64,000 nucleotides of DNA from Sporichthya brevicatena. Lineage in GTDB: Bacteria > Actinomycetota > Actinomycetes > Sporichthyales > Sporichthyaceae. Below the pieces are notes generated by a model that was not told where the DNA came from, ran no database searches, and saw only the letters and a program-made list of their open reading frames with translations. Location of the stretch: NCBI RefSeq assembly GCF_039525035.1, contig NZ_BAAAHE010000020.1, forward strand, positions 14,841-78,840, read 5' to 3'. The position numbers were made by a program, and so were the translations under genes. Shown in pieces: positions 27,211-59,405 of this stretch. Numbering within the stretch: the first letter of the stretch is position 1; each line of letters starts with the position of its first letter.

Positions 27211-27213
27211 CGA

Positions 27214-29267: not shown

Positions 29268-30902
29268 ATGACGTACCGGCTCGGCATTGACCTGGGCACG
29301 ACCTTCACGGCTGCCGCCGTGCTCCGCGCGGGGGGACGCCCGGAGCCGTTGGTGCTGGGGTCACGGTCGGCCGCCGTGCCGTCGGTCGTCTTCCTCGGCC
29401 CCGACGGCAAGGTCCTGTTCGGCGAGGCCGCCGAGGACCGCGCCCCGGACGCGCCCGAGCGCATCGCCCGCCACTTCAAGCGCCGCATCGGTGACGAGGT
29501 TCCGCTTGTCCTCGGCGCCACCGCCGCCGACCGCGTCGAGTGCTACGCCCACGACCTCGCCGCCGCGATCATCGCCTGGGTCGTCGCCGTCGCCACCGCC
29601 CGCGAGGGCGAGCGGCCGGCCGAGATCGCCGTGACCCACCCGGCGTCCTGGACCCGCCGCAAGATCGACCTCCTGCTCGGCGCGCTCGCCGCGCAGAACC
29701 TGCCGCCGGTCACCCTGATCACCGAGCCCGAGGCCGTCGCCGTGGGCTACGCCGGCACCGGCCTCATCGCGCACCCCGCGACGCTCGCGGTCTACGACCT
29801 CGGCGGCGGCACGCTCGACGTCGCCATCCTCACGACCTCCGACGACGGCCGCTTCACCCGCGTCGGCGCCGCCGCCGGCCTCGACGGGCTCGGCGGCATC
29901 GACTTCGACGACGCCGTCCTCAAGCGCGTGCTCGACGCCGTTGACGCGGAGTCCTGGGCCGGCCTCGACGGCTCCGACGTCACGCCCGAGGTCCTGCGCG
30001 CACTCGCCCAACTGCGCGCGGCGAGCGTCGCCGCCAAGGAGACGCTGAGTACTCAGCCGACCGCCTCGGTCTCGGTGCTGTTCGACGGCGAGACCGTCAC
30101 CGTCCCCCTCGAGCGCGAGACCTTCGACAGCCTCATCGCCGACAAGATCGGCCAGTCCGTCGCCTTCTTCGTCGACGCCATCGCCTCCGCCGGCTACGGC
30201 GTCGAGAACCTGACGGCAGTCCTGCTCACCGGCGGTTCGGTGCAGATCCCGCTCGTGACGGAGATGCTCGCCGACGACCTGCCCGAGGGCATCACGATCC
30301 TGCGCGCGGTCGACCCCAAGGCGATGGTCGCCGCCGGCGCCGTGCTCTCGCTCGCGGCTCCGATGGCCGTCACCGCTCCGGCTCCGCGGCGCGGCTCCGA
30401 CCTCGCGGTCGCGCAGGCTCGGGCCTTCTTCGACTCCCGGACCGCGGCGGCCTCGATTCCGGCCGCCCGTAGCGGTGGGTCCGAGGACACGCCCGTCGCG
30501 GCGGCTGCGGTCCCGGCGGCCGCGGTGGCGGCCGGTGGCCCGCCCGCGACCCCGCCCCTGATCCCGGCCGCTCCGAGCCCGTCGCTCGACGACGCCCCGG
30601 CGCCGCAGAAGGTCCCGACCCCGCGGACGCCCGAGACGATGCCGGACGAGACCGTCCCGATCGTTCCGGCCCCGCGCCGGCGCCTGCTCACCTGGCCCCG
30701 CGCCGCGGCCGCCACGGTCGTCGCGGCGGCGGTTCTCGTGGGCGGTGGCTTCTGGCTCCGGGCCGAGAGTCCGACCGTCCCGCCGGCCGCCCCGACGTCG
30801 ACGAGCGACTCCCTCGGCACGTCGACCGCCCCGGACGACAAGCCGGCCAAGGCCGCGAAGCCGAAGAAGCCGAAGGCGACCGCGTCCAACGACACGCCCT
30901 GA
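29268..30902 (+). CDS. Membrane-anchored Hsp70-like ATPase 1
   Basis: A 544-residue protein with an actin/Hsp70 ATPase fold: phosphate-1 LGIDLGTTFTAAAV, phosphate-2 AVYDLGGGTLDVAIL and adenosine motif LLTGGSVQIPLV. In place of the DnaK substrate-binding domain and lid there is a Pro/Ala-rich linker, one membrane helix (about residues 477-497) and a short Lys-rich tail. It is therefore not DnaK; the ATPase should face the cytoplasm. The ATG at 29268 follows GGGGGGAA. Two paralogues lie at 36065-37798 and 48875-50821. Role inferred: ATP-dependent control of envelope partners. Confidence 0.85.
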   Translation: MTYRLGIDLGTTFTAAAVLRAGGRPEPLVLGSRSAAVPSVVFLGPDGKVLFGEAAEDRAPDAPERIARHFKRRIGDEVPLVLGATAADRVECYAHDLAAAIIAWVVAVATAREGERPAEIAVTHPASWTRRKIDLLLGALAAQNLPPVTLITEPEAVAVGYAGTGLIAHPATLAVYDLGGGTLDVAILTTSDDGRFTRVGAAAGLDGLGGIDFDDAVLKRVLDAVDAESWAGLDGSDVTPEVLRALAQLRAASVAAKETLSTQPTASVSVLFDGETVTVPLERETFDSLIADKIGQSVAFFVDAIASAGYGVENLTAVLLTGGSVQIPLVTEMLADDLPEGITILRAVDPKAMVAAGAVLSLAAPMAVTAPAPRRGSDLAVAQARAFFDSRTAAASIPAARSGGSEDTPVAAAAVPAAAVAAGGPPATPPLIPAAPSPSLDDAPAPQKVPTPRTPETMPDETVPIVPAPRRRLLTWPRAAAATVVAAAVLVGGGFWLRAESPTVPPAAPTSTSDSLGTSTAPDDKPAKAAKPKKPKATASNDTP

Positions 30903-31007: not shown

Positions 31008-31397
31008 TCAGCGGCAGGCCTTCTTCTTGCCGATGAACAGGTCGGTCAGGACGGTCAGCTTCGAGGACTTCCCCCGCACGACGAGGGTGGCACCGCACTT
31101 GTACTTGCGCGGGATCGTGACCTTGCTGGAGAAGCCGCCCTTGCCGTTCGCCTTGAACGACTTGAGCGTGTCCCGCTGCTTGCCCTGACGGAGCTTGACG
31201 ACGATCTGCTCGCGTGCCTTGAACTTGGTCGCCTTGAGCGTGATGGTGGCCCCCCGCCCGGGGTTGGGCTTGGAGACGGTCACCGTCGGCTGGGGTGTGT
31301 AGGGGGCGGGTACTGCCTCCGCGGGCGCGGCACCCACCGTCCCCAGGCCGATGGCCGTGGCGGTCGCGATTGCGCAGACGCTCTTCGTCCAGTTCAT
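31008..31397 (-). CDS. Small secreted Ig-like/beta-sandwich protein
   Basis: A 129-residue exported protein. A signal peptide (SVCAIATATAIGLGTVGAAPAEA) is followed by a predicted beta-sandwich with VTVSKPNPGRGATITLKATK and ended by a Lys-rich C-terminus with two Cys (YKCGATL, KKKACR). It shares the pattern 'APYTPxP...xNPxxGxxITxxxxxF' with the two minus-strand surface proteins at 33493 and 34271, but lacks their membrane anchor. AAGGGGG precedes the ATG. Possibly an envelope-binding protein. Confidence 0.75.
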   Translation of the reverse strand: MNWTKSVCAIATATAIGLGTVGAAPAEAVPAPYTPQPTVTVSKPNPGRGATITLKATKFKAREQIVVKLRQGKQRDTLKSFKANGKGGFSSKVTIPRKYKCGATLVVRGKSSKLTVLTDLFIGKKKACR

Positions 31398-31412
31398 GTG
31401 TGCCCCCTTGTA

Positions 31413-34270: not shown

Positions 34271-34948
34271 TCAGGTGTTGCGGCGTCCTCGCGTGCACAG
34301 GAAGCCGACCCCGCCGGTGACGGTCAGGCCGAGCAGCAGGGCCGCGGCGACCTGGCCGGGGGCGTCCTGGGTCAGCGTCGCGCTGTGGGCGACGTTGCCC
34401 CATCCGGTGTGACCCTCGCCGACGTTGCCGCTGCCGGTGTTGTCCTCACCGAGGTTGCCCTCGCCGGTGTTGCCCTCGCCGGTGTTGCCCTCGCCGATGT
34501 TCCCGTTGCCGGTGTTGCCCTCGCCGATGTTCCCGCTGCCCGAGTTGCCGGAGCCGAGGTTGCCGCCCGGGTTCGAGCTGCAGCCGTCCCGGCCACCGAT
34601 GACGATCTGCGTGGACGCGACGAATCCCGACGTCAGGCCCGTCGCGACGATCTCGTGCAGGCAGTGCGCCGACCACGGCAGCTGCACGCGCTTGCTGGCC
34701 TCGCCGTCCTCGTCGGTCTTGAGCGAGCCGAGCGGGACCGGGTCCGAGTGCAGTTCCAGTTCGACGGTCTCGGAGGGGGCGAAGCCGAACAGGTCGACCC
34801 ACACGATGCCGCCGATGGGCGGGTTGTAGGGACCGACCACGACCTCGGGGTCGTCGGTGTACGGGTGGGCCGCTGCGGTCGCGGCGCCGGCCAGGGTCAG
34901 GGTCGCCGCGGCCACGAGAGCGGCGAACGCGGTGCGCGTCGGTGACAC
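34271..34948 (-). CDS. Surface protein with GNxGxGN repeats
   Basis: A 225-residue protein: signal peptide, Ig-like domain (HPYTDDPEVVVGPYNPPIGG) with two conserved Cys, about 13 tandem five-residue repeats of the type GNxGx (GNTGEGNTGEGNLGEDN), then a hydrophobic anchor and a basic tail (CTRGRRNT). The repeats resemble the NxGxGNxG pattern of mycobacterial PPE-MPTR proteins, though no PPE domain is present. GTG start at 34948 preceded by GGGAGG. It likely projects from the cell wall. Confidence 0.75.
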   Translation of the reverse strand: MSPTRTAFAALVAAATLTLAGAATAAAHPYTDDPEVVVGPYNPPIGGIVWVDLFGFAPSETVELELHSDPVPLGSLKTDEDGEASKRVQLPWSAHCLHEIVATGLTSGFVASTQIVIGGRDGCSSNPGGNLGSGNSGSGNIGEGNTGNGNIGEGNTGEGNTGEGNLGEDNTGSGNVGEGHTGWGNVAHSATLTQDAPGQVAAALLLGLTVTGGVGFLCTRGRRNT

Positions 34949-35122
34949 GGGGCCTCCCTCGGGGGCTCGGGGCTGCGATGTCCGCTTTGCCCGGGTGGCG
35001 CGGGACGCTAGTTGATCAGCGAGGCGGGTGTGACTGGCTCCCCTGCGCGGTTCTGTCCGGGTATGTCCGGATTCCGACGCTTGTGGTGAGCCCTGAGGCA
35101 TCCGACGGTCTGTGACCAGAAA

Positions 35123-36064: not shown

Positions 36065-37798
36065 CTACTTCGCCGCGCGCGGGGCCGAAGCGACCTTCAT
36101 GTCCTTCACCGGCTGGTCGGTGATGGCCGGGGTCGCGGGGTTCCACGCCGTCGCGCCGACGAAGATCGCCGCCGTCAGGGCCGTGAGCGCCAGCGAACGG
36201 CGGACGCTGACGAGCGAGCGCCAGGTCCAGCCGGCCTGCAGGGCCTCGAGCTCGACGTCGTCGACCGCGGAGAAGAGCTGGTCCTCGAGCGCCGGGCGCG
36301 GCGGGGGCAGGGTCTCCGCGCTGCGGACCGGGGCGGGGGCGTCCTCGACGAGGAGCGCCTCGACCGACCGGACCGCGCGGGCCGGGATCACCGCACGCGG
36401 GACCTCGGCGACCATCGCCGCCGGGGCCTCGGACGGCGCCGCCGGACGCGGAGCGACGGGCGTCGCGACCGCGATCCCCTCGAGCCCGACCACCTCGGGG
36501 CGACGGGCACCCCGGCGGGGACGGATCGGCTTGCTGCTCGGGCCGGTCGGCGTCGGGAGCGGGATCGCCGGGGCCGCGGGGGCCTCGGCGACCGGTGCCT
36601 CCGGGGCAGCCGCGACCGCCTGAGCGGCAGCCTTGGGCTTGCGAGCAGCGGTCTTCACGACCTGCTTCGCGGCGGCGAGCACCGGCGCCGGGGCGGCGGG
36701 CGAGGCCTCACCGAGCGCGAGGACCGCACCCGCGGCGACCGCGGTGGCGGGGGTGGCGGGGGTGGCCCCACCGGCGCGGACCACCGGGCGCTGGAACTGA
36801 CGCGAGACCAGCTGGGTCACGAGCGGGATCCGGGCCGAGCCGCCGATCGTCAGGACGGCGGCGAGGTCCGCCGCCGCGACGCCGGCATTCTCCAGCACGG
36901 AGTCGAGGACGTCGACGGTCGCCTCGAGCGGGCCGGCGATCAGGCCTTCGAGCTCGGACCGGGTCAGGCGCACCGAGCCGGCGATGCCGGGCAGGGCGAC
37001 CTTCACGGTCACGGCGGTTTCGGTGGACAGCTTCTCCTTGGCCGCGACGCACGAGGCGCGCAGGGTGGACAGGGCGGCGCCGGTCTCGGCGTCCTCGGCG
37101 TCGAGGGCGGCGAAGGCGGTCTGCTGATCCGGCGTCAGGCCCGAGACGACGTGCGCGAGGACGAGGTCGTCGAAGTCCGCGCCGCCGAAGTCGGCGAGCT
37201 CGGCGGGCCGGCCGAGGACGGACCAGGTCTGCCCCGCCTCGTCGAGCTGGACGACCGCGGCGTCGAACGTGCGGCCGCCGAGGTCGTAGATCGCGAGCTT
37301 CGTGCCGGGCGCGTAGGCCGCGTCCTGCGCACCCAGCGCGGCGGCGGCGACGGGCTCGGCGACGAGGGTCGCGTTCGCGACGCCGGCCTCGGCGAGGGCG
37401 GCGGCGAAGAGCTCACGCTTGTGCGGGCCCCAGGTGGCGGGGTGCGTCACGGCGACGGCGTCGGGCGCACGGCCCTCCTGCACGCTCGCCTGGTCGACGA
37501 CCCATGCGACGAGGTCCGCGGCGACGCGGTGCGCGGCGGAGGCCGCCCCGACGGCCGGGATCATCGGCGTCTCGTCGCCGATCCGGCGCACGAACCCGCG
37601 CAGGACACGCTCGGACTCCGCGGCGGCGACATCCGCCACGGCGTGGCCGTAAAGACGGGCTCCGTCCGTGCCGATGTAGACCACGGACGGCACCACCGCG
37701 GAGTCAGCGCCGAGGGAGGAGCCGCCGGCTCCACCGTCCCGCGCGATCGTCGCGGCCGTATATGACGTTCCCAGGTCCACGCCCAGTCGGTAACCCAC
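36065..37798 (-). CDS. Membrane-anchored Hsp70-like ATPase 2
   Basis: A 577-residue paralogue of the protein at 29268. Motifs: LGVDLGTSYTAATI, AIYDLGGRTFDAAVV and LTIGGSARIPLV. The phosphate-2 motif has Arg in place of the third Gly, which may weaken ATP hydrolysis. A long Pro/Ala-rich linker (about residues 370-515) leads to one membrane helix near residues 535-552 and a short outer tail. No substrate-binding domain. It is divergent from the giant IniB-domain gene, with about 535 bp between starts. Start is GTG at 37798. Confidence 0.85.
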   Translation of the reverse strand: MGYRLGVDLGTSYTAATIARDGGAGGSSLGADSAVVPSVVYIGTDGARLYGHAVADVAAAESERVLRGFVRRIGDETPMIPAVGAASAAHRVAADLVAWVVDQASVQEGRAPDAVAVTHPATWGPHKRELFAAALAEAGVANATLVAEPVAAAALGAQDAAYAPGTKLAIYDLGGRTFDAAVVQLDEAGQTWSVLGRPAELADFGGADFDDLVLAHVVSGLTPDQQTAFAALDAEDAETGAALSTLRASCVAAKEKLSTETAVTVKVALPGIAGSVRLTRSELEGLIAGPLEATVDVLDSVLENAGVAAADLAAVLTIGGSARIPLVTQLVSRQFQRPVVRAGGATPATPATAVAAGAVLALGEASPAAPAPVLAAAKQVVKTAARKPKAAAQAVAAAPEAPVAEAPAAPAIPLPTPTGPSSKPIRPRRGARRPEVVGLEGIAVATPVAPRPAAPSEAPAAMVAEVPRAVIPARAVRSVEALLVEDAPAPVRSAETLPPPRPALEDQLFSAVDDVELEALQAGWTWRSLVSVRRSLALTALTAAIFVGATAWNPATPAITDQPVKDMKVASAPRAAK

Positions 37799-38333
37799 TT
37801 GTCAGCCCCCCCAGCTGTCCCCCTGCTACCCCTTAGAGGGGACCACGGCCCGTTTGGTTGCCTGTCGGGGTTTGCTGAATGGAGACCGTGCGTATTCGCA
37901 CACCGCCGGGATCGCTGCTGAAAGCGCCGGCCTGAGCCGTTGCGGCCAATTGTGGCGGAATGTCCGTTTGTTTCCCGGAGGGCGCCGAATTGGCACCCTG
38001 ACCGGACGGAAAGCTCGTTACCGAGAGTCACCCGAACGGGGGAACTTGCCTTTGGGCGGTTAGTTCCCGGCTTCGTCCGATTTGCCGACCCCATATTGCC
38101 GACAGGCCTCCGACCAGCGGCTTTGCGCGTTCTTGACAAGGGTTATCGCCGATGGTGGCCTGTCACCCGCGAACCCCCTAATCGCCGATTGGGGGGTGTC
38201 GTGAGAGCCCCTAAGGTCCAAGCCGAGCATTGGGGAACAGGCCCGATGGACGGCTCCAGTGAATTTCTAACGTGATCAGAAGAACCGGTCCGGTGTGGAT
38301 CGGTCACGCTGACAAATTGGTGGGGGAGCCGGC
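37799..38333. promoter_or_regulatory. Divergent promoter region, hsp70-like 2 / giant iniB-like
   Basis: 535 bp without a credible gene, AT-richer than its flanks. It holds TCACCCGAACGGGG (38028-38041), an inverted repeat CCCCCTAATCG/CGATTGGGGGG (38174-38196) and two CCCTA boxes 33 bp apart (38176 and 38209). Related elements occur before other genes of the island, so shared control is likely. Confidence 0.5.
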
Positions 38334-43275: not shown

Positions 43276-44226
43276 ATGTCCCACACCCGCGCGGACCGGA
43301 TCGCCCGACGGGCTGCCATCGAGGCGGTCGCGAGCCGGCAGGGAAATCTCATCGGGCGTCGGCAGCTCTATGCCCTCGGCGTGACGCGCAGCGAGGTGCG
43401 CGCGGAGATCGTCGCCCGGCGATGGCGACGGCGCGGCTGTCAGTGCATCCAGGTCGGGGACGCCGGCGACGCGACTCCCTACTGGCGGGCCGTCCTGGAG
43501 GTCGGGCCGACGGCTGTGGTCGACGGCGTCAGCGCACTGATCTTCGCCGGCCTGCGGACGATCAGCTCGGCGGAGATTCACATCGCGGTCCCTCAGGGCG
43601 CCTGGTACCGCCGCTGCAAAGGCGTCCGCGTGCACGAGACGCGGCGCTTCCGTGAGGTGGACGTCGTACGCGGCGGCCTCCCGCGCACGGCGCCGGCGAC
43701 CGCCGCGGTCCACGGTGCGCTGTGGGCGCGTACCGACAACGAGGCGGCGCTGTTCGTCATCGCCTCCGTGCAGCAGGGTCTCGTCGCGGTGCCGCAGCTC
43801 GTCGACGCCGTCGCTCTCATCAAGCGCGACAAGCGCCGCAAGCTGCTCAAGGGCTTGCTGATCGACGTCAGCGACGGCATCGAGTCGATCGACGAACGCG
43901 CGTTCGCGAAGGTGTGCCGGGACCGCGGGATTCCCAAACCGGATCGTCAGGTGGTGGCCCGACTTCCGTCGGGGCGCGTCCGCTACGACAACTACTGGGG
44001 CGACGTTCTCGTCGTCGAGATCCATGGCGCCCAGCACCTCGACGTCGCGATGACGACGCGGGACATGCTCAAGCTGAACGCCGCCTCGATGGACGGTCGC
44101 GCCGTCATCCAGATCCCCAACTTCGCGATCCGGACGAACCCGGATCCGTTCCTCGACCAGATCGAGTCCGTCCTCGCCGCCAGGGCTTACAAACCCCCGC
44201 AACGTCAGCGAAAGCGCGCGTCATAG
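43276..44226 (+). CDS. AbiEi/DUF559-type protein with Vsr-like nuclease fold, bracketed by palindromes
   Basis: A 316-residue protein of the same broad family as the gene at 10965: N-terminal DNA-binding-like part (GNLIGRRQLYALGVTRSEVR), AbiEi-like centre, and a PD-(D/E)XK-like C-terminal domain with candidate residues Glu in SIDERAF, Asp in RYDNYWG, and Glu/His in VVEIHGAQH. The last dozen residues (YKPPQRQRKRAS) and the TAG are encoded by the downstream palindromic repeat. It interrupts the series of IniB-related genes, uses a weak ribosome site and has a terminator on its upstream side, so it looks inserted. Confidence 0.75.
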   Translation: MSHTRADRIARRAAIEAVASRQGNLIGRRQLYALGVTRSEVRAEIVARRWRRRGCQCIQVGDAGDATPYWRAVLEVGPTAVVDGVSALIFAGLRTISSAEIHIAVPQGAWYRRCKGVRVHETRRFREVDVVRGGLPRTAPATAAVHGALWARTDNEAALFVIASVQQGLVAVPQLVDAVALIKRDKRRKLLKGLLIDVSDGIESIDERAFAKVCRDRGIPKPDRQVVARLPSGRVRYDNYWGDVLVVEIHGAQHLDVAMTTRDMLKLNAASMDGRAVIQIPNFAIRTNPDPFLDQIESVLAARAYKPPQRQRKRAS

Positions 44227-44255: not shown

Positions 44256-44263
44256 ACCGGGGG

Positions 44264-44294
44264 CCCTAGTGCGATCTTCACGTCCCCCTAGTGA
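44264..44294 (+). promoter_or_regulatory. CCCTAGTG direct repeats, 22 bp apart
   Basis: CCCTAGTG (44264-44271) and CCCTAGTGA (44286-44294) repeat with a 22-bp period about 115-140 bp before the repeat-protein gene. The same pair with the same spacing occurs at 46787-46817 before the next repeat-protein gene. GTGATCAC (44291-44298) overlaps the second box. Confidence 0.5.
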
Positions 44295-46676: not shown

Positions 46677-47040
46677 CTGTGCCCGCGAGGGCACGTGCGA
46701 ATTTCATAGCGGAAAGGTCCACCTTTCCTTTCGGACAGGGTGGATGAGGACCGTCACGGCCCCGAATTGGGAATGTCACTGCGCGGCCCTAGTGAGGCCG
46801 TCACATCTCCCTAATGACAGCAAGATCCGTTAGGTGCCGACCCCGATTGGATCTTGCGCTCGCATCCCTACTTTCGATTCAGGGACGCAACGGCCCCACC
46901 AACCACCGCTGCGTCGCCAGTGAGAACGACGTCTGCTCTGCATTTACGGGGCGATTCGGTCATCACGCTCGACCTGATCGACACAGAGATCTGACACCTG
47001 CGCGGGACCCCTTCCCCGCCGTAACTGGAGGCACCCACCC
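46677..47040 (+). promoter_or_regulatory. Upstream region of the Gly/Leu repeat gene
   Basis: About 360 bp without a gene. It carries CCCTAGTGA (46787-46795) and CCCTAATGA (46809-46817), the 22-bp-spaced pair also found at 44264. Further CCCCGAATT and CCCCGATTGG boxes lie at about 46760 and 46840. GGAGG lies about 12 bases before the ATG at 47041. Confidence 0.5.
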
Positions 47041-48874: not shown

Positions 48875-50821
48875 TTACGGCGCGGGGGGAGACTCCTCAC
48901 CAGCGTCGCCGAACTCGACGGAACCGGACTCGGTCGAGGTGTCTTCCTCGACCTCTGCGGCCGGGGCGGGGGCCGCCTGCTCGGCGGGGGCCGCCTCGAC
49001 GGCCGACGGGGCGGCGACGGCGTCGACCGGTGCTGCCTCGGGGGTCGTGGCCTTCGTCGGGGTCACGGCGCCATCGCTGCGGCGGGCCGTGGCCTTGCGG
49101 TCGGTCTTCGCGGGACGCTCGACGACGACGTCGTCCTCCTCGTCCGCCCGCGCCGAATCTGTCGTGGCGTCAGACGATCCGGCCGAGGCGGCCCGCGAGT
49201 CGGCACTCCCCTCCGTGCGCCCACTCGCGGATCCGCCCGCCGACCCCGTGGCCGCGTCCGAGGAGGACGACTCCTCCGCGGCCGTCTCCTCGGCCCGCTC
49301 CCCGCGGGCCTTGTCCTTGTTCTTGCTCTTGCCGGTCTCCTCGACCTGGAGCTCGGCGTCGTCACCGACACCGGCACGGGCCTCCTGCACCGAACCGGCG
49401 GGAACGGCGTCGCCGAGGTCGAGCACGCCGAGCGACGCCAGCCCGAACCCGCCGAGCAGGATCACGCCCGCGGCGACTGTCACGACCTTGTGCGCCTTGC
49501 GCTGCGGCTTGGGCTCGGACTTCATCCGCCGTCCCTCGACGATCTCCGCCTCCCGACCGTCGAACTTCTCGGTCGTGAGCGCGGGACGCACCGGCCGGTC
49601 GGCGGTGGTGCCGGCTGCCACCGGAGCCAGGGGAGCCACGGAAGCCGGGGCGGGGGAGTTTGCCGCCGCGGCCGCCGGAGCGACGGCCGCGGCAGCGGCC
49701 AGTCCGGCGGTGAGGGCGAGCGCGGGACGGGCGTGCCGGCCGGACTTCTCCAGGGCCAGGACGCCGCCGATCGCGACCGCGAGCTTGGGGTCGATGTCCC
49801 GCTCGAGCGGGACGCCCGGGTACCGAGCGGACAGCAGCTGCGTCACGAGCGGGATCCGCGAGGACCCACCGGTGAGCAGGATGCGGTCGAGGTTCTTGCT
49901 CGTCAGCCCCGCGGAGACCAGCGCGGCCTCGACGAAGGTGCACGTCTCCTCGAGGGCGCCGGCGATCATCGCCTCGAAGTCGGCGCGGGTGACGCGGACG
50001 GAGGTCTGCGCCCCGCCGAGCAGGACCGGCACGGTCGCGGCGGTGTCGGCGGACAGGGCCTCCTTCGCCTCGACGCACTCACGCCGCAGGCGGGCCATCG
50101 CCGTCAGGTGCAGCGGGTCGTCGGGCTCGACGCCCGGGGTCTGCGGCCCGGCGACGCCGAGCACGTAGGCGAGCACTGCGTCGTCGAAGTCGACGCCACC
50201 GAGGTTCGGGATCCCCGTCGGGGTGCCGAGTGCGGTGAAGCGGTTGCCGGACTCCGCGCGCAGGACCGCCGCGTCGAACGTCCCGCCGCCGAGGTCGTAG
50301 ACCGCGACGGCCGCGCCGGCCTCGAGCTTCCCGGCCTGTGCGTAGGCCAGGGCCGCGGCGGCGGGCTCGCTGATCATCGTGACGTCGAGCAGGCCCTCGC
50401 GGGCGAGCGCGCCGGCGAGCAGGTCCTTCTTGTGCGAGCCCCACGCGGCCGGGACGGTGACGGCGACGGCGTCGGGCGCCCCGCCCTCCTGCTCGGCGAC
50501 GCGGTCGGCGACGAGGCCGATCATCTTCGCCGCGAGGGCGTGCGCGGTGAGGCCGTCGCCGGACGTGCCGACGAGCAGCGGGGTCTCGTCCCCGATGCGG
50601 CGCTTGAACCGACGGACCACGCGGTCCGGGTCGGTCAGCGCGCGGCGCTCGGCCGCCTCACCCATGAGGACGGTGCCGTCGGCGCCCAGGAACAGGACGG
50701 AGGGCACGGTCGCGGACCGGTCGCCCAGTCGGACGACGGTCGGCGCGGACCCGGTGCCCGGGCGGTGCACCACCGCCGCGGTGTTGGTGGTGCCGAGATC
50801 GACACTGAGTCGGTAACCCAT
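48875..50821 (-). CDS. Membrane-anchored Hsp70-like ATPase 3
   Basis: A 648-residue paralogue. The ATPase motifs are intact: LSVDLGTTNTAAVV, AVYDLGGGTFDAAVL and LLTGGSSRIPLV. After a linker, one membrane helix (about residues 445-466, AAGVILLGGFGLASLGVL) is followed by a 180-residue Ser/Ala/Glu-rich acidic tail predicted outside the membrane, far longer than in the two paralogues. No DnaK-type substrate domain. The ATG at 50821 follows AAGGGGG. It is divergent from the second IniB-domain gene. The outer tail may contact cell-wall material or the repeat proteins. Confidence 0.87.
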   Translation of the reverse strand: MGYRLSVDLGTTNTAAVVHRPGTGSAPTVVRLGDRSATVPSVLFLGADGTVLMGEAAERRALTDPDRVVRRFKRRIGDETPLLVGTSGDGLTAHALAAKMIGLVADRVAEQEGGAPDAVAVTVPAAWGSHKKDLLAGALAREGLLDVTMISEPAAAALAYAQAGKLEAGAAVAVYDLGGGTFDAAVLRAESGNRFTALGTPTGIPNLGGVDFDDAVLAYVLGVAGPQTPGVEPDDPLHLTAMARLRRECVEAKEALSADTAATVPVLLGGAQTSVRVTRADFEAMIAGALEETCTFVEAALVSAGLTSKNLDRILLTGGSSRIPLVTQLLSARYPGVPLERDIDPKLAVAIGGVLALEKSGRHARPALALTAGLAAAAAVAPAAAAANSPAPASVAPLAPVAAGTTADRPVRPALTTEKFDGREAEIVEGRRMKSEPKPQRKAHKVVTVAAGVILLGGFGLASLGVLDLGDAVPAGSVQEARAGVGDDAELQVEETGKSKNKDKARGERAEETAAEESSSSDAATGSAGGSASGRTEGSADSRAASAGSSDATTDSARADEEDDVVVERPAKTDRKATARRSDGAVTPTKATTPEAAPVDAVAAPSAVEAAPAEQAAPAPAAEVEEDTSTESGSVEFGDAGEESPPAP

Positions 50822-51246
50822 GGCGCGCCAGCCCCCTTGGTCGTGGTTCAACGGGGGCAATACGACCGGAGCGACACCCGCCGGGTCGCCCTAAACCAGG
50901 ACAAGATCGTTTGACCGCGAGCGCAGCAAAGGAGCCGAGGGAAGGTCCGATTTCGGGCGTTCGTGCAGGTCGGAGGCGGTTTACTACCGCTTGAACCAGT
51001 GTGACTGGTGATGTCTAGTGTGACGGTTGTTACCACTTCTTGAACACCAGTCACACGCGACACGCCGCGAATCCCCCAACGCGGGCGCGCCGGCCAAGAT
51101 CCAGATCCCCCAATCCGGTGATCTTGATTTGGGGGTTTTCCCCGATCCGTCCGATTCGCCCGACTCCCTAGGTTCGGCACCACAGCGGCTCCGGTGCGGG
51201 GCCCCGAGCCCACCACCTCGGACGAATCTGACGAAGGGTCACCCCA
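50822..51246. promoter_or_regulatory. Divergent promoter region, hsp70-like 3 / iniB-like 2
   Basis: 425 bp without a credible gene. GTGTGACTGGTG (50999-51010) and CACCAGTCACAC (51045-51056) form a perfect 12-bp inverted repeat, and AGTGTGACGG (51017) adds a direct half site 19 bp after the first. GCGGT-TTACT-ACCGC lies just before. CCCCCAATC and GATTTGGGGG flank about 51105-51135, and CCCTAGGTT (51166-51174) could be a -10 for the iniB-like gene. Confidence 0.55.
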
Positions 51247-51948
51247 ATGGCTACCTCCCTGCTCGACTGGATCATGGACCTGATGCGGGACGGCAGCGCC
51301 CGCGAGGCGTTCAACACGAACCCGCAGCTGTCGATGGCGTCCGCCGGCTTCACCAACGTGTGCGGCGCGGACGTCGCGGACTCGCGCACGTTCCTCTTCG
51401 ACAACCCCTCGATCCGCGAGGTCGGCGGCGTCGAGCGTCCCTCGGTCGACGAGGCGGACGCGGCGGAGCACATCCGCTACATCATCAACAACTACACGAT
51501 CGAGCAGCCGGCCGTGGCGTCCGACAGCTTCACCGGCCCGACGACGATCATCGACACCCCCGAGCCCAGCAGCACGGACACGCAGTCGACCGGGATCGAG
51601 GGTGACAACAACACCGTCACCGCGAACCAGGAGAACACCGCGGACCAGAGCTCGTCGGACGACGACACGGTGACCGACTCCAGCACCAACATGGACAGCG
51701 ACGCCGACAACGTCGTCACCGGCGACCACTCGGCCGGTGAGAACCAGATCGCCGGTGGCCTCGACGACATCGGCGAGGGCCTGTCGGGCAACGACAACAC
51801 GAACATCATCACCCTCGCCGACGTGGTCGACATCGAGGACTCCCCGATCCTCAACGAGTCGCTGAACCGGCTCGTCGACGACAGCCTGAACGAGGTCGCC
51901 TACAACGGCCTGCAGTCCGCGCACGACCTGATCAACATCCTCGGCTGA
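51247..51948 (+). CDS. IniB-domain protein 2 (233 aa)
   Basis: An IniB N-terminal domain (SLLDWIMDLMRDGSAREAF, then SAGFTNVCG) of about 60 residues, then an acidic Ser/Thr/Asn/Asp-rich disordered region (NQENTADQSSSDDDTVTDS) and a C-terminal helix ending HDLINILG. No signal peptide. It is about 60-70 percent similar by eye to the next gene, including leader and 3' hairpin. AAGGGTCAC precedes the ATG. In M. tuberculosis iniB is followed by the dynamin-like iniA and iniC, as here. Confidence 0.85.
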   Translation: MATSLLDWIMDLMRDGSAREAFNTNPQLSMASAGFTNVCGADVADSRTFLFDNPSIREVGGVERPSVDEADAAEHIRYIINNYTIEQPAVASDSFTGPTTIIDTPEPSSTDTQSTGIEGDNNTVTANQENTADQSSSDDDTVTDSSTNMDSDADNVVTGDHSAGENQIAGGLDDIGEGLSGNDNTNIITLADVVDIEDSPILNESLNRLVDDSLNEVAYNGLQSAHDLINILG

Positions 51949-52189: not shown

Positions 52190-52882
52190 ATGGCCATCAC
52201 CCTGCTCGACTGGATCGCCGACCTGATGCGCAACGCCGGCGCCCGCGAGGCGTTCGCCGCGCAGCCGCAGCTCGCCATGGCGTCCGCCGGCTTCACGCAG
52301 TCCTGCGGCTCCGGCGAGGTCTCCCCGGCGTTCTACCCGGCGGACACCAGCTTCCGCGAGGTCCAGGGCGTCTCGGTGCCCGACACCGTCCAGGACGTCA
52401 CGTACGTCGAGTACGTCATCAACAACTACACGTACACCACGCCGGCCGTCTCCACCTCGGAGTTCACCGGCCCGACGACCATCATCGACAACCCGGAGCC
52501 CAGCAACACCGAGACCCAGGGCGCCAACATCGAGGGCGACGGCAACACGGTCGACGCGAACCAGTCGAACACCGTCGACCAGAGCTCGAGCGACGACGAC
52601 ACCACGACCGACGAGAGCACCAACACCGACCAGGACGCCGACAACGTCGTGACCGGCGACCACTCGGCCGGTGGCAACCAGATCGCCGGCGGCATCGACG
52701 ACGTCGGTGAGGGCATCTCGGGCAGCGACAACCTGAACGTCATCACGCTGGCGGACGTCGTCGACATCGAGGACTCGCCCATCCTCAACCGCAGCCTCAA
52801 CGACGCGGTCGACGACAGCCTCAACGAGGTCGGCTACAACCTGCTCCAGAACGCCGAGAACCTGATCAACATCCTGGGCTGA
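52190..52882 (+). CDS. IniB-domain protein 3 (230 aa)
   Basis: A paralogue of the preceding protein: LLDWIADLMRNAGAREAF and SAGFTQSCG in the IniB domain, then NYTYTTPAVSTSEFTGPTTI, an acidic NTVDQSSSDDDTTTDES region and the same C-terminal helix (NLINILG). The leader GGAAGGGTCAC matches that of iniB-like 2. It is 210 bp upstream of the dynamin pair. Possibly cytoplasmic or exported by an unknown route; no signal peptide is visible. Confidence 0.85.
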   Translation: MAITLLDWIADLMRNAGAREAFAAQPQLAMASAGFTQSCGSGEVSPAFYPADTSFREVQGVSVPDTVQDVTYVEYVINNYTYTTPAVSTSEFTGPTTIIDNPEPSNTETQGANIEGDGNTVDANQSNTVDQSSSDDDTTTDESTNTDQDADNVVTGDHSAGGNQIAGGIDDVGEGISGSDNLNVITLADVVDIEDSPILNRSLNDAVDDSLNEVGYNLLQNAENLINILG

Positions 52883-53007: not shown

Positions 53008-53092
53008 CCGCCTGCGCGGACCGGGTCGCGGACTTACCGTGGCTCGGGGCGCCTGTGGGGGCGGTCGTGAAGACCAGGGTCAGGAGAGGTAC

Positions 53093-54937
53093 GTGCCGGC
53101 ACCCGAAGCGGTGATCCAGACGGTCGACGAGGCGCTGCGCATGGTCACGGCGCGCGGCCGCACCGACCTCGCGGCACGCCTGCGCAAGACCAAGGACCGG
53201 CTCCACGACGACCGCATCCGTGTCCTGGTCATCGGGGAGTTCAAGCAGGGCAAGTCCCAGCTGGTGAACGCCCTGGTCCGGGCCCGGGTCTGCCCCGTCG
53301 ACGACGACATCGCCACCTCCGTCCCGACGGCCGTGTACTACTCCGAGACGCCGGTCGTGACGCTGGTGAAGGAGGAGCCGGGCGCGGATCCCGACGACGA
53401 GTCACGTCCGGTGCGCACCGAACGCACCGAGGCGAGCCTGGAGGACATCCAGCGCTTCGTGACCGAGATGGGCAACCCCGCGAACCGCGAGGGGCTCAGC
53501 CACGTCGAGGTAGGACTGCCCACGCCGTTGCTCCAATCGGGTCTTGAGCTCGTGGACACTCCGGGCGTCGGTGGTCTCGGGTCCGTCCGCGCCACCGCGA
53601 CCCTCGCAGCCCTGCCCGGCGCCGACGCCGTCCTCCTCGTCTCCGACGCCGCGCAGGAGTACACCGCCGCGGAGCTCGAGTTCCTCAAGCACGCGGTGAA
53701 GCTGTGCCCGAACATCGCCTGCATCCTGACGAAGATCGACCTCTACCCCGAGTGGCGGCGCATCTACGAGCTGAACCAGGCGCACCTGACCAAGGCGGGC
53801 ATCACGGCCCAGCTGATCCCGGTCTCCTCGGTGCTGCGCTGGCACGCGCTCGACCGCAACGACAACGACCTCAACATCGAGTCCGGCTTCCCGGTGCTCG
53901 CGACGATGCTGACGAACACCGTCGGCCAGGCGGAGCTGCTGGTGCGGCGCGCGGTCGCGAACACCGTGGCCGGCGTGGCCGAGCAGCTCGCGCGGGGTCT
54001 GCAGTCCGAGCTCGGCGTCCAGGAGCACCCGGAGACCGTGCAGTCGACGGTCACCGACCTGCGTGCGGCCAAGGAGCGGATGGCCGCCCTGCGTGACCGG
54101 TCCGCCCGCTGGCAGCAGACGCTCTCGGACGGCGTCGCCGACCTCGCCGCCGACATCGACTACGACCTCCGCGACCGCATGCGCGACATCCAGCGCAACG
54201 CCGAGGAGGAGATCGACGTCCTCGGCGACCCCGCCGTCGTGTGGGTCGAGTTCGCCCCGTGGGTGGAGGAGCAGGTCGCGGCCGCGACGTCGGCCAACTT
54301 CGTCTGGGCGAACGAACGCGCCCGCTACCTGGCCGCGCTCGTCGCCGAGCACTTCGCGGAGGACGGTCAGCTCTCGCTGCCCGACCTCGACGTCGACTCC
54401 GGCGGGTCGATGCAGGCCGTCCGTCCGATGTACCTCTCCGACGAGGGTGACCCGAGCCTCGGCGAGCAGGCCCTGATCGCCGTCCGCGGCGGTTACATCG
54501 GAACACTCATGTTCGGCATGTTCTCCACCTTCGCGGGGATGGCTCTGCTGAACCCGTTCTCGGTCGGCGCCGGTCTCCTGCTCGGTGGACGTACGCTGCG
54601 GGAGGAGAAGAAGCGCTTGCTGCAGCGCCGTCAGGCGGAGGCGAAGAACGCTGTGCGTCGATACACCGACGATGTGACCTTCCACGTCGGGAAGGACTCG
54701 CGCGACATGCTGCGCCGGGTCCAGCGTCAGTTGCGCGACCACTTCACGCAGGTGGCCACCGAGCTCGAGACGTCGCTGCAGGACTCGCTGAAGGTCGCCG
54801 AGGCCGGCGCCCGCACCAACGCCAAGGACCGCGAGGCCCGGATCGGTGAGCTCAAGCGCGAGCTCGCCGGCGTCGCCGCGCTGCAGAAGCAGGCTCGCGA
54901 CCTCGTCGCCGTCGCCGCGAAGGCGGGTGCGGTGTGA
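53093..54937 (+). CDS. Dynamin-like GTPase, IniA-like
   Basis: A 614-residue bacterial dynamin-family protein. G1 GEFKQGKS lies at residues 48-55, G3 is DTPGVGG and G4 is LTKID. After helical stalk-like regions a hydrophobic pair near residues 475-510 (GGYIGTLMFGMFSTFAGMALL) could insert in the membrane, as in IniA, where fission of membranes has been shown for the mycobacterial protein. The GTG at 53093 follows AGGAGAGG. It overlaps the iniC-like gene by 4 bp, so the pair is coupled. Confidence 0.9.
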   Translation: MPAPEAVIQTVDEALRMVTARGRTDLAARLRKTKDRLHDDRIRVLVIGEFKQGKSQLVNALVRARVCPVDDDIATSVPTAVYYSETPVVTLVKEEPGADPDDESRPVRTERTEASLEDIQRFVTEMGNPANREGLSHVEVGLPTPLLQSGLELVDTPGVGGLGSVRATATLAALPGADAVLLVSDAAQEYTAAELEFLKHAVKLCPNIACILTKIDLYPEWRRIYELNQAHLTKAGITAQLIPVSSVLRWHALDRNDNDLNIESGFPVLATMLTNTVGQAELLVRRAVANTVAGVAEQLARGLQSELGVQEHPETVQSTVTDLRAAKERMAALRDRSARWQQTLSDGVADLAADIDYDLRDRMRDIQRNAEEEIDVLGDPAVVWVEFAPWVEEQVAAATSANFVWANERARYLAALVAEHFAEDGQLSLPDLDVDSGGSMQAVRPMYLSDEGDPSLGEQALIAVRGGYIGTLMFGMFSTFAGMALLNPFSVGAGLLLGGRTLREEKKRLLQRRQAEAKNAVRRYTDDVTFHVGKDSRDMLRRVQRQLRDHFTQVATELETSLQDSLKVAEAGARTNAKDREARIGELKRELAGVAALQKQARDLVAVAAKAGAV

Positions 54938-56634
54938 TCCTTCGCCGCAAGAACAAGAAACGCGCGGCGGAAACGGACGAGACGGCGACCTCCGGCGTTC
55001 CCGCCCAGGCCACCCCCGCCGGTCCGCTGCCCGGCTCCGCTCCGCTCGAGCCCCCGACGGCTGCGGCTCCGGATGCGCCGCCGGCTCCGGTCGAGACGCC
55101 GGCCGCCCCGGTCGCGCGGGAGACGCCGGTCCCCGCGGCGCGGTCGCGGATCACGCCGGCGTCGACGGACATCTGCGACCAGGTGCGCGCCGTGCTGCAG
55201 CAGGCCGCGGAGGTCTACGCCGACCACCCCGAGGAGGCGGAGCGGATCGAGGCCCACCTCGACCGGCTCGACTCCCCGGTCCGGATCGCCATCGCCGGCA
55301 AGGTGAAGGCGGGCAAGTCGACGCTGTTGAACGCGCTCGTCGGCGAGATCATCGCCCCCACCGACGCGGGGGAGTGCACCCGCATCGTCACCTGGTACCG
55401 CAACGCCCAGGCGCCGCGGATCGTCATGCGGCGCAAGGACGGCGAGGCCGCGGACCTGCCGATCGTCCGGCACAACGGCAAGCTCGAGCTCGACCTGCTC
55501 GGCGCCGCGCCCGAGGACGTCGACCGCCTCACCGTCGACTGGCCCTCCGGTGACCTCTCCTCGATGACGCTGATCGACACCCCGGGCATCGCGTCCGCGT
55601 CGGCGGAGGTGTCCGCGCGGACCGAGGCGCTGCTCACCCCCGACGAGGAGCAGGGCGCCGCCGACGCGATCGTCTACCTGATGCGGCACGTGCACGCCGA
55701 CGACGTCGGGTTCCTCGAGGCCTTCCACGCCCACGCGGCGATCGGGTCCTCCCCGGTGAACACCGTCGCGGTGCTCTCCCGGGCGGACGAGATCGGCGCC
55801 GGCCGCGTCGACGCGCTGCAGTCCGCGCGCGCGATCGCGTCCCGGCTGCGCGGCGAGGAGAAGATCCGGTCGCTGTGTCAGACCGTCGTCCCCGTCGCGG
55901 GTCTGCTGGCCGAGACGGGACGGACGCTCCGTCAGTCGGAGTTCAACGCGCTCGCGAAGATCGCCGCCGCGGACCGTGACTTCGTCGACGCGATGCTGCT
56001 CTCCGCCGACCGCTTCGGGCGCGAGCTGCCCGAGGGCTCGCCGGACCTGCCGTCGGCCGAGGTGCGCCGCCGGCTGCTCGAGCGGTTCGGGCTCTTCGGC
56101 GTCCGGCTCGCGCTGCCGCTGATCCGGCAGGGCATCACGGACTCGACGGCGCTGTCGGCGGAGCTCGTCCGTCGCTCCGGGCTGGAGGAGCTGCGCGAGG
56201 CCCTGACCGCGCTGTTCACCGAGCGCGGTGACCTGCTCAAGGCGCGGTCGGCGCTGATGGCGCTGGACTCGATCCTGCGTTCCACGCCGCTGCCCGAGTC
56301 GGAGATGCTCTTCGCGCAGGTCGAGAAGATCTCGTCCGGCGCGCACGAGTTCGTCGAGCTCGGCCTGCTGGGGTCGTTGCGCACTGGTGCCGTCGTGCTC
56401 CCCGCGGACCAGCGCGCCGAGGCCGAGCGCCTCCTCGGCGGGACCGGTCAGGCCCAGTTCGTGCGCCTCGGCCTCCCGCCGGAGGCGACCCCCGACGAGA
56501 TCCGCGACGCCGCCACCGACGCGATGGGCCGCTGGCGCCGCCGGGCCGAGAACCCCGCCTCGACCCGCCCCGTCGCCGACGCCGCCCGCGTCATCGTCCG
56601 CACCTGCGAGGGCATCATCGCCTCCCTGCCCTGA
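54934..56634 (+). CDS. Dynamin-like GTPase, IniC-like
   Basis: A 566-residue partner GTPase. A Pro/Ala-rich head of about 70 residues precedes the GTPase domain: G1 GKVKAGKS at 122-129, G3 DTPGIAS near 213 and G4 LSRADE near 288 (a variant of N/TKxD, as in mycobacterial IniC). The helical remainder has no hydrophobic insertion segment, unlike the upstream gene, which suggests a heteromeric pair with one membrane-inserting subunit. The start overlaps the previous stop (GTGA). A perfect palindrome follows. Confidence 0.88.
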   Translation: MILRRKNKKRAAETDETATSGVPAQATPAGPLPGSAPLEPPTAAAPDAPPAPVETPAAPVARETPVPAARSRITPASTDICDQVRAVLQQAAEVYADHPEEAERIEAHLDRLDSPVRIAIAGKVKAGKSTLLNALVGEIIAPTDAGECTRIVTWYRNAQAPRIVMRRKDGEAADLPIVRHNGKLELDLLGAAPEDVDRLTVDWPSGDLSSMTLIDTPGIASASAEVSARTEALLTPDEEQGAADAIVYLMRHVHADDVGFLEAFHAHAAIGSSPVNTVAVLSRADEIGAGRVDALQSARAIASRLRGEEKIRSLCQTVVPVAGLLAETGRTLRQSEFNALAKIAAADRDFVDAMLLSADRFGRELPEGSPDLPSAEVRRRLLERFGLFGVRLALPLIRQGITDSTALSAELVRRSGLEELREALTALFTERGDLLKARSALMALDSILRSTPLPESEMLFAQVEKISSGAHEFVELGLLGSLRTGAVVLPADQRAEAERLLGGTGQAQFVRLGLPPEATPDEIRDAATDAMGRWRRRAENPASTRPVADAARVIVRTCEGIIASLP

Positions 56635-56744: not shown

Positions 56745-59405
56745 TCAGGCGTCGTTGTCGAGGGCGGCGCGGAGCTGGGAGAACAGCTCGCCGCGGCTGC
56801 CGGCGCCGAGGCGCTGGCGCATACGGGCGACGTGGTGCTCGACGGTCTTCGCGGAGATGAACAGCCGCTCGCCGATCTCCTTGTACGTCAGGCCCGTGAC
56901 GAGCAGAGCGGCGACCTCGCGCTCGCGCTCGGAGAGGCTGACCCCGCTCGACGAGGAGGACGACGAGGTCGGCGCGGAGTCCCCCGGACGGCTGGGGGAG
57001 GGGAAGGTCGGCGTGTCGGCCGGGAGGTCCAGGCCCGCGGCCTCGACCGCGACCGAGCCGGCGGCGGCCGGACGCAGCGAGCGGGCGACGCTCATCAGCG
57101 CCGACATCACCTGGCGGTCGCCGGTGCGGACGGCGGCCTGGCCGGCGAGGCGGGAGGCGTCCCAGGCGTGGCCGATCGAGTGCAGACGCCGGGCCGCGGC
57201 CTCGACCTCGGTGGCGTCGACCTGACCCGCCATCACGCGCATCCACGACCGCGCCGCCGCGGCGAGGACCGCCGCCTGCGGGTAGGACGGGGCCGCTGTC
57301 TCGAGCACAGCGATATGTGACTCGGCGTCAGCCGGACGGTCCGCCAGACTCGCGGCCTGGACGGCATACCAGTGCATCGGGGTCGCCCACAGCGCCGGCT
57401 GGCCGAGACGGTCGAGCAGAGCCCACGCCTCGGTGAGGTGCGGACGGATCCAGCTCTCCTCCTGCAGTCGCGCCGCGGCGACGGCGAGCTCGCCGACGGC
57501 GTGCAGCGCGAACAGGTCGACGGGGTGGCGGACGATCGCCTGCCGCGCCCGCTGCCACGCGGTGGTCAGCGCGCCGAGGTCGCCCTCGCGGCGGGCGAGC
57601 CCGACCTCGATGGCGGCGGCGGTCAGTTCCTCGCGGGGCTCCAGGGCGCCGCCGCCCGGGCCGGCGGAGGCGACGAGAGCGCGGGCGGCGTCGAGGTCGC
57701 CCCGCTGCATCGCGGTCCAGGCCTGCAGGAGGCGGTAGCGCGACATCGCCGGCTCCCCGCCGAGGCGGACGGCGACCGCCCGGCTCAGCACGGACTCGGC
57801 GACGTCGAACTCCCCGCAGTTCAGCGCGACGATCGCGGCGAGGGCGGCGGGGGTGTCGGGCATCAGGGTCCGCTCGGCGGCGGGTTCGAGCAGCATCGCG
57901 GCGCGGGCGAGCAGCGAGAGCGCGAGGCTCGGCGTCCCCGTCACGCTCTCCAGGACGCCCTCGGCGAGCAGGGTCTCGACCCCGTCCGACAGCGTCGGTG
58001 CCGGCAGCAGGCCGTGCTCGAGGGCGGCGCGCGCCCCGGGCAGGTCACCGACGCCGAGCAGCGCCGGCACCGCGAGCACGGGCGGCTCGCCGGTCGTGTT
58101 GGCCCACCAGCGGTAGAGCTGCGCGGTGCGGCTGAGCATGCCGCGGGTCGCGAGGACGGTGGCGGCGACCGCGACGGCGACGTCGCGGTCGGGAGCGTTG
58201 GCGTCGGAGATCGCGACGTCGGCCAGGCGCAGCGCGGTGTTCAGGTCGCCGACGAGCGCGCTCGCGCGGCCCAGCTTCGCGGCGACGGACGCGATCGGAA
58301 CCCCCGCCTGCACGGCGGCGGCGTAGAGCTTGACGGCCTCGGTCGGCGTCGGGGCCTCCCCGGCACCGGCGGCGAGCACGGCCCCGACCTCGGGCCCGGT
58401 CATCCCCGCCCCGGCGAGCGCGCGGGCGTGCTCGAGCATCGAACCGCCGCGGCGGTGGACGGCGGTGACCCAGCCGGTCCGCATGGCCTGGATGCGCATC
58501 GGCGGCGCGAGGGTGAGCAGCGCGTGCCGGGCGAGCGGCAGCAGCGCACCGGTCTCGGTCAGCAGCCCGCTCGCGCGCGCCACCTCGGCGGCGTGCTCGA
58601 CGGACGCGGGCTCGGAGTTCAGGACGTCGGCCAGCACCTGCGGGTTCAGCTCCGCCCCGACGGCGAGCGCGAGCAGCAGGCTCAGTGGTTCGGGCCCGAG
58701 GGCGCTCAGGTCCAGACGCAGGAGTTCGAGGACGCTCGTCGGGATCTTCGCCGGCGCCCAGCCCGCGTGCCCCGGCCCGTCGGGGACGAGCCCGGCGGCG
58801 CACAACGCGGCGGCGAGGGCGTCGACGAGCTTCGGCGTCCCGGCGGTCTGCTCGTAGACGAACGCGGCGAGCGCGGCGCTGCCGGCCCCGGTGCACAGCC
58901 CCTCGACGCGGGCCGTGACCTCGGCCCGCGAGAGCCGCCCGAGCACGATCGGCGCCCGCTGGCGGCCGAGCGCCGCGGCGAGGGCGTCGACGTGCGGCAG
59001 GTCCGGCCCCGGACGCGTCGCGACGACGATGCGCTGGCGGCCCGCCTCGACCATCCGGCGCAGGTCGAGGAGGACCTCGTCGGGCAAATTGCGGGCGTCG
59101 TCGATGAGGAGGACGGCGTCCTCCGGCGGCGGCCAGGCTGACGCGTCGCGGTGCACCGTCGCGCCGGCGGTGGAGTAGATGGAGGCGAGCGCGTCGAGCA
59201 TCGCCGTCTTGCCGGTGCCCCCGCGCCCGACGATGACGCCGACCAGCGGGCCGGACGGGTCGGCCGCGGCGTCCGCGCAGAGCGCGACGGCGGCGTGCGA
59301 GCCCGAGAACGTCGCGTTCGGATTCCGCGGCGCCGTGAGCGAGGACGCGGAGCCGCGCGAACCGGGACCGGGAACCCGGGCCGATTGAGCGCTGGCCTGA
59401 ACCAC
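56745..59405 (-). CDS. STAND-type ATPase with LuxR helix-turn-helix (IniR-like regulator)
   Basis: An 886-residue transcription regulator. Walker A GRGGTGKT is at residues 60-67 and Walker B-like VLLIDDAR near 100. A long helical, TPR-like middle follows, and the C-terminus holds a LuxR domain (LSEREREVAALLVTGLTYKE and ISAKTVEHHVARMRQ). This matches large LAL/STAND regulators. M. tuberculosis Rv0339c (IniR), of similar layout, controls iniBAC and lies beside it; here the gene converges on the iniC-like gene. GTG at 59405 is chosen for its G-rich site; a GTG at 59489 is also open. Confidence 0.87.
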   Translation of the reverse strand: MVQASAQSARVPGPGSRGSASSLTAPRNPNATFSGSHAAVALCADAAADPSGPLVGVIVGRGGTGKTAMLDALASIYSTAGATVHRDASAWPPPEDAVLLIDDARNLPDEVLLDLRRMVEAGRQRIVVATRPGPDLPHVDALAAALGRQRAPIVLGRLSRAEVTARVEGLCTGAGSAALAAFVYEQTAGTPKLVDALAAALCAAGLVPDGPGHAGWAPAKIPTSVLELLRLDLSALGPEPLSLLLALAVGAELNPQVLADVLNSEPASVEHAAEVARASGLLTETGALLPLARHALLTLAPPMRIQAMRTGWVTAVHRRGGSMLEHARALAGAGMTGPEVGAVLAAGAGEAPTPTEAVKLYAAAVQAGVPIASVAAKLGRASALVGDLNTALRLADVAISDANAPDRDVAVAVAATVLATRGMLSRTAQLYRWWANTTGEPPVLAVPALLGVGDLPGARAALEHGLLPAPTLSDGVETLLAEGVLESVTGTPSLALSLLARAAMLLEPAAERTLMPDTPAALAAIVALNCGEFDVAESVLSRAVAVRLGGEPAMSRYRLLQAWTAMQRGDLDAARALVASAGPGGGALEPREELTAAAIEVGLARREGDLGALTTAWQRARQAIVRHPVDLFALHAVGELAVAAARLQEESWIRPHLTEAWALLDRLGQPALWATPMHWYAVQAASLADRPADAESHIAVLETAAPSYPQAAVLAAAARSWMRVMAGQVDATEVEAAARRLHSIGHAWDASRLAGQAAVRTGDRQVMSALMSVARSLRPAAAGSVAVEAAGLDLPADTPTFPSPSRPGDSAPTSSSSSSSGVSLSEREREVAALLVTGLTYKEIGERLFISAKTVEHHVARMRQRLGAGSRGELFSQLRAALDNDA

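Follow-up and report, generated by a model that had tools for sequence, protein, structure and literature searches.

The stretch analysed here, referred to as the window, comprises 64,000 nucleotides of Sporichthya brevicatena (contig 20, positions 14841-78840, of a 5.2 Mb source genome). The genes and elements of interest, in window coordinates, are:

29268-30902, plus strand: hspA, Hsp70-like NBD protein with a Pfam HSP70 match; TM helix at about 30702-30758; short basic/Pro tail
36065-37798, minus strand: hspB, Hsp70-like NBD protein with a Pfam HSP70 match; K70V and G198R; TM at about 36158-36214; divergent from iniB1
38174-38195: ini-box dyad CCCCCTAATC-GCC-GATTGGGGG, upstream of iniB1
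38334-43094, plus strand: iniB1, IniB N-terminal domain, then about 1500 residues of LL(S/N)G-type repeats
44262-44297: box-like element GGCCCTAGTG..TCAC.TC.CCCTARTGA, upstream of rep1
44365-46575, plus strand: rep1, LPxLPxI/LGEIVPALP repeat protein; ATG at 44407 perhaps the true start
46785-46820: box-like element, upstream of rep2
47041-48741, plus strand: rep2, GLLGGVTGG repeat protein
48875-50821, minus strand: hspC, core orthologue of the ini-locus Hsp70-like proteins; TM 49430-49486; divergent from iniB2
51107-51135: ini-box dyad CCCCCAATC-N10-GATTTGGGGG, upstream of iniB2; extra half-site CCCCCAAC at 51073
51247-51948, plus strand: iniB2, short IniB-domain protein; middle acidic and Asn/Ser/Thr-rich; C-terminal helix
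52190-52882, plus strand: iniB3, tandem paralogue of iniB2
53039-54937, plus strand: iniA-like dynamin-family GTPase, Dynamin_N match
54934-56634, plus strand: iniC-like dynamin-family GTPase, Dynamin_N match; 4-base overlap with iniA
56745-59489, minus strand: iniR homologue, STAND/AAA ATPase with a C-terminal LuxR-type HTH; convergent with iniC

Three IniB-domain proteins, two other repeat proteins, an IniA/IniC-like pair and a STAND-LuxR regulator are encoded in one 30-kb island, as an earlier sequence-only reading of this DNA had described. The IniB_NTERM profile (NF038175, cut-off 40 bits) gave 44.9 bits for iniB1, 51.5 for iniB2 and 30.1 for iniB3, the last being under the cut-off yet a clear paralogue of iniB2. 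In the window these proteins stand beside an IniA/IniC dynamin pair, the arrangement of an Ini system, and the two GTPases form the tandem Dynamin_N pair of bacterial dynamin-like proteins. The regulator aligned to the IniR profile NF038181 over positions 4-826 of 827 with 445 bits, which fails the equivalog cut-off of 750, and it is therefore treated as a full-length homologue without equivalog status; in the survey of the class, only matches from one genus (g5) passed this cut-off. The AlphaFold model of iniB2 was poor (pLDDT 53). A faint likeness of the IniB N-terminal domains (38334-38480, 51247-51400 and 52190-52330) to LigA-type small helical domains was dropped as a candidate relationship, at E = 0.11 in one of five members.

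The family search gave no match for rep1 or rep2, which were found in the genus Sporichthya only; promoter element and position tie rep1 to the island by inference. Antisense ORFs across the repeat genes most likely arise mechanically from the high GC content. Between iniB1 and rep1, the ORF at 43276-44226 (plus strand) had no Pfam match and may resemble AbiEi/DUF559-type proteins. Two putative secreted proteins are encoded between hspA and hspB, at 31008-31406 and 34271-35101 (both minus strand), the latter containing GNxGxGN repeats of pentapeptide type and, at its C terminus, a hydrophobic segment. Next to hspA lie genes for a polysaccharide flippase and a Wzc-type chain-length/tyrosine kinase (25903-28884, minus strand).

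The three Hsp70-like proteins matched Pfam HSP70 with E values of 1e-32 to 1e-44, only over profile positions 2-370 of 599; the substrate-binding domain is therefore absent from hspA, hspB and hspC. Judged as Hsp70 chaperones, they have the NBD and lack the substrate-binding domain and lid, the remainder being disorder and TM. Each has one hydrophobic segment past the NBD with basic residues near it, the weakest being that of hspB, so that three Hsp70-like proteins with a single membrane helix and no substrate-binding domain are present as previously read. Such a segment followed the NBD in 68 of 80 proteins checked, a set that includes two DnaKs as controls, both without it. As a rule basic residues come before it and a Pro/Thr/Ser-rich tail after it, an order which by the positive-inside rule suggests a cytoplasmic NBD and a tail reaching outside, into the cell wall.

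In the AlphaFold model of hspC, residues 1-362 form a DnaK-type NBD (pLDDT mostly >90). Beyond residue 362 the model is disordered, save for a short helix at the membrane segment, and the 184-residue tail, rich in Ser/Thr/Glu/Pro, is predicted to lie outside. The best solved matches found by Foldseek were DnaK structures (NBD 5obx, TM 0.85 by target length). The ini NBDs therefore resemble those of the Hsp70 chaperones DnaK and HscA in sequence and fold, whereas a membrane helix and a low-complexity tail take the place of the substrate-binding domain. They also differ from DnaK in that many copies have lost the active site and in their placement in the tree, where DnaK forms a single clade (100/98) separate from the ini NBDs. 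There, hspC clusters with ini NBDs of the same genus. Orthologues of hspA and hspB were found only in one genome of the same genus (G001), and the deep placement of both is uncertain because of long branches. Together with rep1 and rep2, hspA and hspB are genus-specific additions. Kinship to the Rv3446c-type NBD proteins of type VII secretion (TIGR03931) found no support, this profile having no match in ten NBD proteins at E values up to 1.

Membrane NBD genes proved to be regular neighbours of ini genes. A profile scan of genome contigs with an IniA alignment yielded 80 loci, mainly from Pseudonocardia and also from Lentzea, Actinomycetospora, Arthrobacter, Paenarthrobacter, Cellulomonas, Microbacteriaceae and Williamsia. 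An NBD gene was present in 64 of the 80, and where the sequence extended 7 kb or more upstream, the count was 50 of 51 (the exception being L055); loci of one genus are not independent in these counts, and the pattern spans several families. In 14 whole genomes, an NBD gene lay within about 7 kb of all 18 IniA loci scoring above 300 bits. The Cellulomonas gene is degenerate, below the reach of Pfam and detected by a custom HMM only.

One rival reading is that Hsp70-like genes, being frequent in large genomes of actinobacteria, are linked to ini genes without any shared function. Pseudonocardia, Lentzea and Actinomycetospora genomes do hold several NBD genes away from ini loci, and the non-independence of loci within a genus points the same way. 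However, the linkage is found at all 18 loci of the 14 genomes, is kept across several families and gene orders, and extends to a promoter box common to some NBD genes. In the Arthrobacter, Compostimonas, Agromyces and Paenarthrobacter genomes (3.6-4.3 Mb), DnaK and the ini copy are moreover the only Hsp70-family genes, which by our own arithmetic puts the chance expectation per locus in these four below 1%. Mere hitch-hiking is hardly credible on these grounds; the association of NBD and ini genes is far beyond chance.

The regulator gave a second entry point. IniR was present in 26 of 297 genomes of the class, and eight of nine non-mycobacterial IniR loci had a clear NBD gene; the ninth (L162), with a 29-bit NBD match only, was excluded from the clear count. 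In the fetched stretches of 31 loci from genus g5, which was assigned to Mycobacterium by IniR scores above the curated mycobacterial cut-off and a nearby dnaK, an NBD gene was found in 30, and representative proteins matched Pfam HSP70 independently at 67-73 bits. Genome G086 (L198) exemplifies an ini locus with IniR where the fetched 11.6 kb held no clear NBD gene, which makes the NBD protein dispensable. Both entry points bear out the sequence-only reading, which a lack of statistical co-occurrence between membrane Hsp70-like and IniB-domain genes in other genomes would have refuted and which had placed the Hsp70-like genes in a single system with IniB, IniA and IniR. Among the matches listed, dnaK itself lies about 8-50 kb from the ini locus in many g5 and Williamsia genomes; in other families it is far away or on a different contig.

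Across actinobacterial families the components are conserved and their order varies. In Sporichthya and Pseudonocardia the NBD gene is divergent from IniB and iniR is convergent behind iniC. Arthrobacter and Microbacteriaceae carry NBD-iniR-iniB-iniA-iniC on a single strand, while in some Lentzea, Cellulomonas, Williamsia and Mycobacterium the NBD gene is followed by iniR on the same strand with IniB divergent. Counting 77 NBD genes from outside the later mycobacterial sample, 53 were divergent from IniB, 28 stood directly before iniR and 11 did both. In Mycobacterium a same-strand NBD gene precedes iniR at 29 of 31 loci. A second NBD gene is frequent there, directly behind iniC at 10 loci and behind iniR at 7, the latter being the position of the M. 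smegmatis dnaK-like gene of Boot 2017 (PMC5760070). These positions, before iniR or behind iniC, indicate the regulator and the dynamins at least as strongly as IniB. The NBD gene of Pseudonocardia and Sporichthya lies apart from iniR, which counts against a view of the NBD protein as a switch for IniR.

The dynamins could instead be the primary partner. Loosely as Hsc70 acts beside dynamin, the NBD protein, an actin-fold ATPase or pseudo-ATPase anchored in the membrane, would then recruit or release IniA/IniC there, with no part in IniR signalling. The same-strand gene directly behind iniC at 10 of the 31 mycobacterial loci fits such a role, as do an NBD gene following iniC with a gap of a few bases (L170) and two loci, Williamsia L140 and Pseudonocardia L141, that pair Dynamin_N genes with an NBD gene and have neither IniB nor IniR. 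Yet outside Pseudonocardia the commonest tight pairing is an NBD gene directly before iniR, and in Arthrobacter and Microbacteriaceae iniB-iniA-iniC forms a unit with its own box after the NBD-iniR pair, which makes an exclusive dynamin partner rather unlikely.

In the Williamsia locus, two dynamin-family genes and the NBD gene stand in a row (L140:6837-12061); small WXG100-like ORFs nearby may mark a type VII secretion region. In Pseudonocardia, histidine-kinase genes have as neighbours genes for NBD proteins with the NBD-TM layout (L147, L152/L153); the NBD protein of L147 combines the NBD and TM with a beta-propeller predicted outside, and a response-regulator-like ORF lies alongside. Distant IniC matches by the NBD genes of L147 and L152 turned out to be histidine kinases and not dynamins.

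The catalytic residues examined (T11, K70, E171, D194, G196-T199 and D201) are complete in hspA, hspC and most Pseudonocardia and Arthrobacter copies. The site is altered in hspB (K70V, G198R), and K70, E171, T199 and D201 are gone from every one of the 29 mycobacterial iniR-proximal copies, with K70 replaced by V, E171 by D and T199 by G. Some copies may thus use nucleotide, while others, judging from these residues, would be unable to hydrolyse it. ATP hydrolysis is therefore no universal requirement, and the earlier description of an ATP-driven system does not hold as a general rule.

The same reading had suggested that the ATPases may handle or gate the repetitive proteins, taken here as the handling, export or gating of IniB-type repeat proteins in ATP-driven cycles. 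Divergence from an IniB gene in 53 of 77 cases is consistent with this, and so are the duplicated Sporichthya pairs hspB-iniB1 and hspC-iniB2, which had been recognised as divergent from the start and are kept together with a dyad between each. The missing substrate-binding domain and the lost ATPase residues of hspB and the 29 mycobacterial copies argue against it, however, as do hspA, which adjoins no IniB gene, and the two dynamin-NBD loci without IniB. We consider such ATP-driven handling decidedly improbable; gating of the repeat proteins by the NBD proteins is possible and the least supported reading.

Upstream of iniB1 and iniB2, four CCCCC-N(0-1)-AATC half-sites in the window form two dyads. 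The dyad pattern CCCCYAAT-N(2-14)-ATTNGGGG occurs at two sites in the whole 5.2 Mb genome, both between the divergent hspB-iniB1 and hspC-iniB2 pairs, and its reversed control at none. The Sporichthya form of the box is thus an inverted dyad; tandem same-direction boxes were not found in this genome, where even the reversed control pattern gave a few matches. The elements upstream of rep1 and rep2 are identical at 26 of 36 positions. With a box upstream of both linked IniB units, the single system inferred from sequence also shows signs of shared regulation.

This promoter element is common to other ini loci, again as in an Ini system. In a k-mer count upstream of IniB genes at all loci, CCCCTAA and its extensions were strongest (44 of 115 regions against 1.8 expected). 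For CCCC[CT]AA[CT], 71 of 113 sites fell within the 1.5% of locus DNA upstream of IniB, a count in which motif discovery and test share the same data and relatives are not independent. The 31 Mycobacterium loci, largely fresh data, had 125 of 145 sites within 3.2% of the DNA, and the box was borne by 59 of 61 IniB genes and 7 of 16 second NBD genes. Throughout one whole genome (G059), tandem boxes occurred at three places only: iniB, iniB* and the second NBD gene. Arthrobacter-type loci show a 23-base box spacing. The exact box was absent at several Lentzea, Agromyces and Actinomycetospora loci despite the module. In genome G007 (L031, C1:1107677) an unlinked gene for a 995-residue IniB-domain protein is preceded by tandem CCCCTAA boxes 8 bases apart and is predicted to belong to the regulon in trans. 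Since IniR binds the iniBAC promoter in ChIP-seq (PMC5760070), we infer that the CCCCYAAY box is the natural candidate IniR site.

Among the closest known systems is the mycobacterial iniR-iniB*-iniBAC locus (PMC5760070; PMC6715688), which has the same IniR, IniB-domain and IniA/IniC dynamin components. Most sampled mycobacterial ini loci share with Sporichthya the type of NBD gene and the promoter box. The Sporichthya locus differs in its three NBD paralogues, three IniB genes, two extra repeat proteins and an iniR convergent with iniC. That the Hsp70-like partner lies outside the published description was nearly right: the mycobacterial account of Boot 2017 (PMC5760070) limits it to one sentence, which notes for M. 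smegmatis that a dnaK-like gene lies downstream of iniR, and that sentence was the only mention of an Hsp70/ini association in our literature search, which covered few subscription papers. GAP1-N2 GTPase conflict systems (Kaur 2020, PMC7159879) are likewise GTPase-centred, contain an Hsp70 without peptide-binding domain and are common in actinobacteria; by description they are set apart, comprising GAP1-N2 GTPases with HSP70, GrpE and FNIII-repeat proteins where ini loci have dynamins with IniB and IniR. A further likeness is to MalT-type STAND-LuxR regulation, as the middle domain of IniR is MalT-like (PMC5760070). The ini boxes are short G/C-rich direct or inverted repeats with CCCCYAAY as their own sequence, and may resemble MalT boxes. 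Judging from the Boot 2017 account and general background, M. tuberculosis and M. marinum probably have no ini NBD gene.

We conclude that a membrane Hsp70-NBD protein belongs to the core of the Ini envelope-stress system of actinobacteria and has gone largely undescribed. The Ini system itself is known; in the literature searched, neither a membrane NBD protein as its regular member nor the shared box appears to have been described. The missing substrate-binding domain, the hydrophobic segment after the NBD in most proteins checked and the ATPase residues lost in hspB and the mycobacterial copies favour a membrane switch or anchor over a chaperone, and the protein probably serves IniR and the dynamins in this way. 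Pairing with iniR in several families favours a role for IniR, and the position behind iniC together with the dynamin-NBD loci L140 and L141 favours a second role at the dynamins.

We therefore propose, with a probability of about 0.5 for the account as a whole, an expanded Ini envelope-stress module in which the NBD protein is switch or anchor for IniR, the boxes define its targets and dynamins are recruited. Its conserved core would consist of IniR, one or more IniB-domain proteins, the IniA/IniC dynamin pair and the membrane-anchored Hsp70-type NBD protein. The NBD copy encoded with iniR would hold IniR at the membrane and, upon wall damage, release or activate it. IniR would then bind the CCCCYAAY boxes and induce IniB proteins and dynamins, along with any NBD copies under box control; these copies in turn would recruit IniA/IniC for membrane repair or pinching off. 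IniA is a GTP-dependent membrane fission protein (PMC6715688), an activity that fits such a downstream repair role. The Sporichthya module would be enlarged by two more NBD paralogues and two repeat proteins.

A wider claim can be put forward tentatively. The NBD protein might represent a new transmembrane signalling class, in which an Hsp70/actin-fold ATPase or pseudo-ATPase, its tail facing the wall, controls the STAND-LuxR regulator IniR; it would be the missing membrane sensor for the drug-stress response of iniBAC, found in most ini loci of actinobacteria and, it seems, lost from the best-studied pathogens, with its NBD-TM layout reused beside dynamin (L140, L141) and histidine-kinase (L147, L152) genes. 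This layout may be a general membrane-sensor design.

The iniBAC response, studied chiefly in tuberculosis work and marked by induction with isoniazid/ethambutol or trehalose, is among the most strongly induced responses to first-line tuberculosis drugs. In most sampled ini loci, of mycobacteria and other actinobacteria alike, the NBD protein encoded with iniR or behind iniC is a candidate for carrying the wall-damage signal to IniR and for a partner of IniA, and the promoter box gives the predicted regulon a sequence-level definition. The comparison suggests that what has been studied in M. tuberculosis and M. marinum may be a reduced version, and that the well-studied iniBAC may be a trimmed-down form of a larger one.
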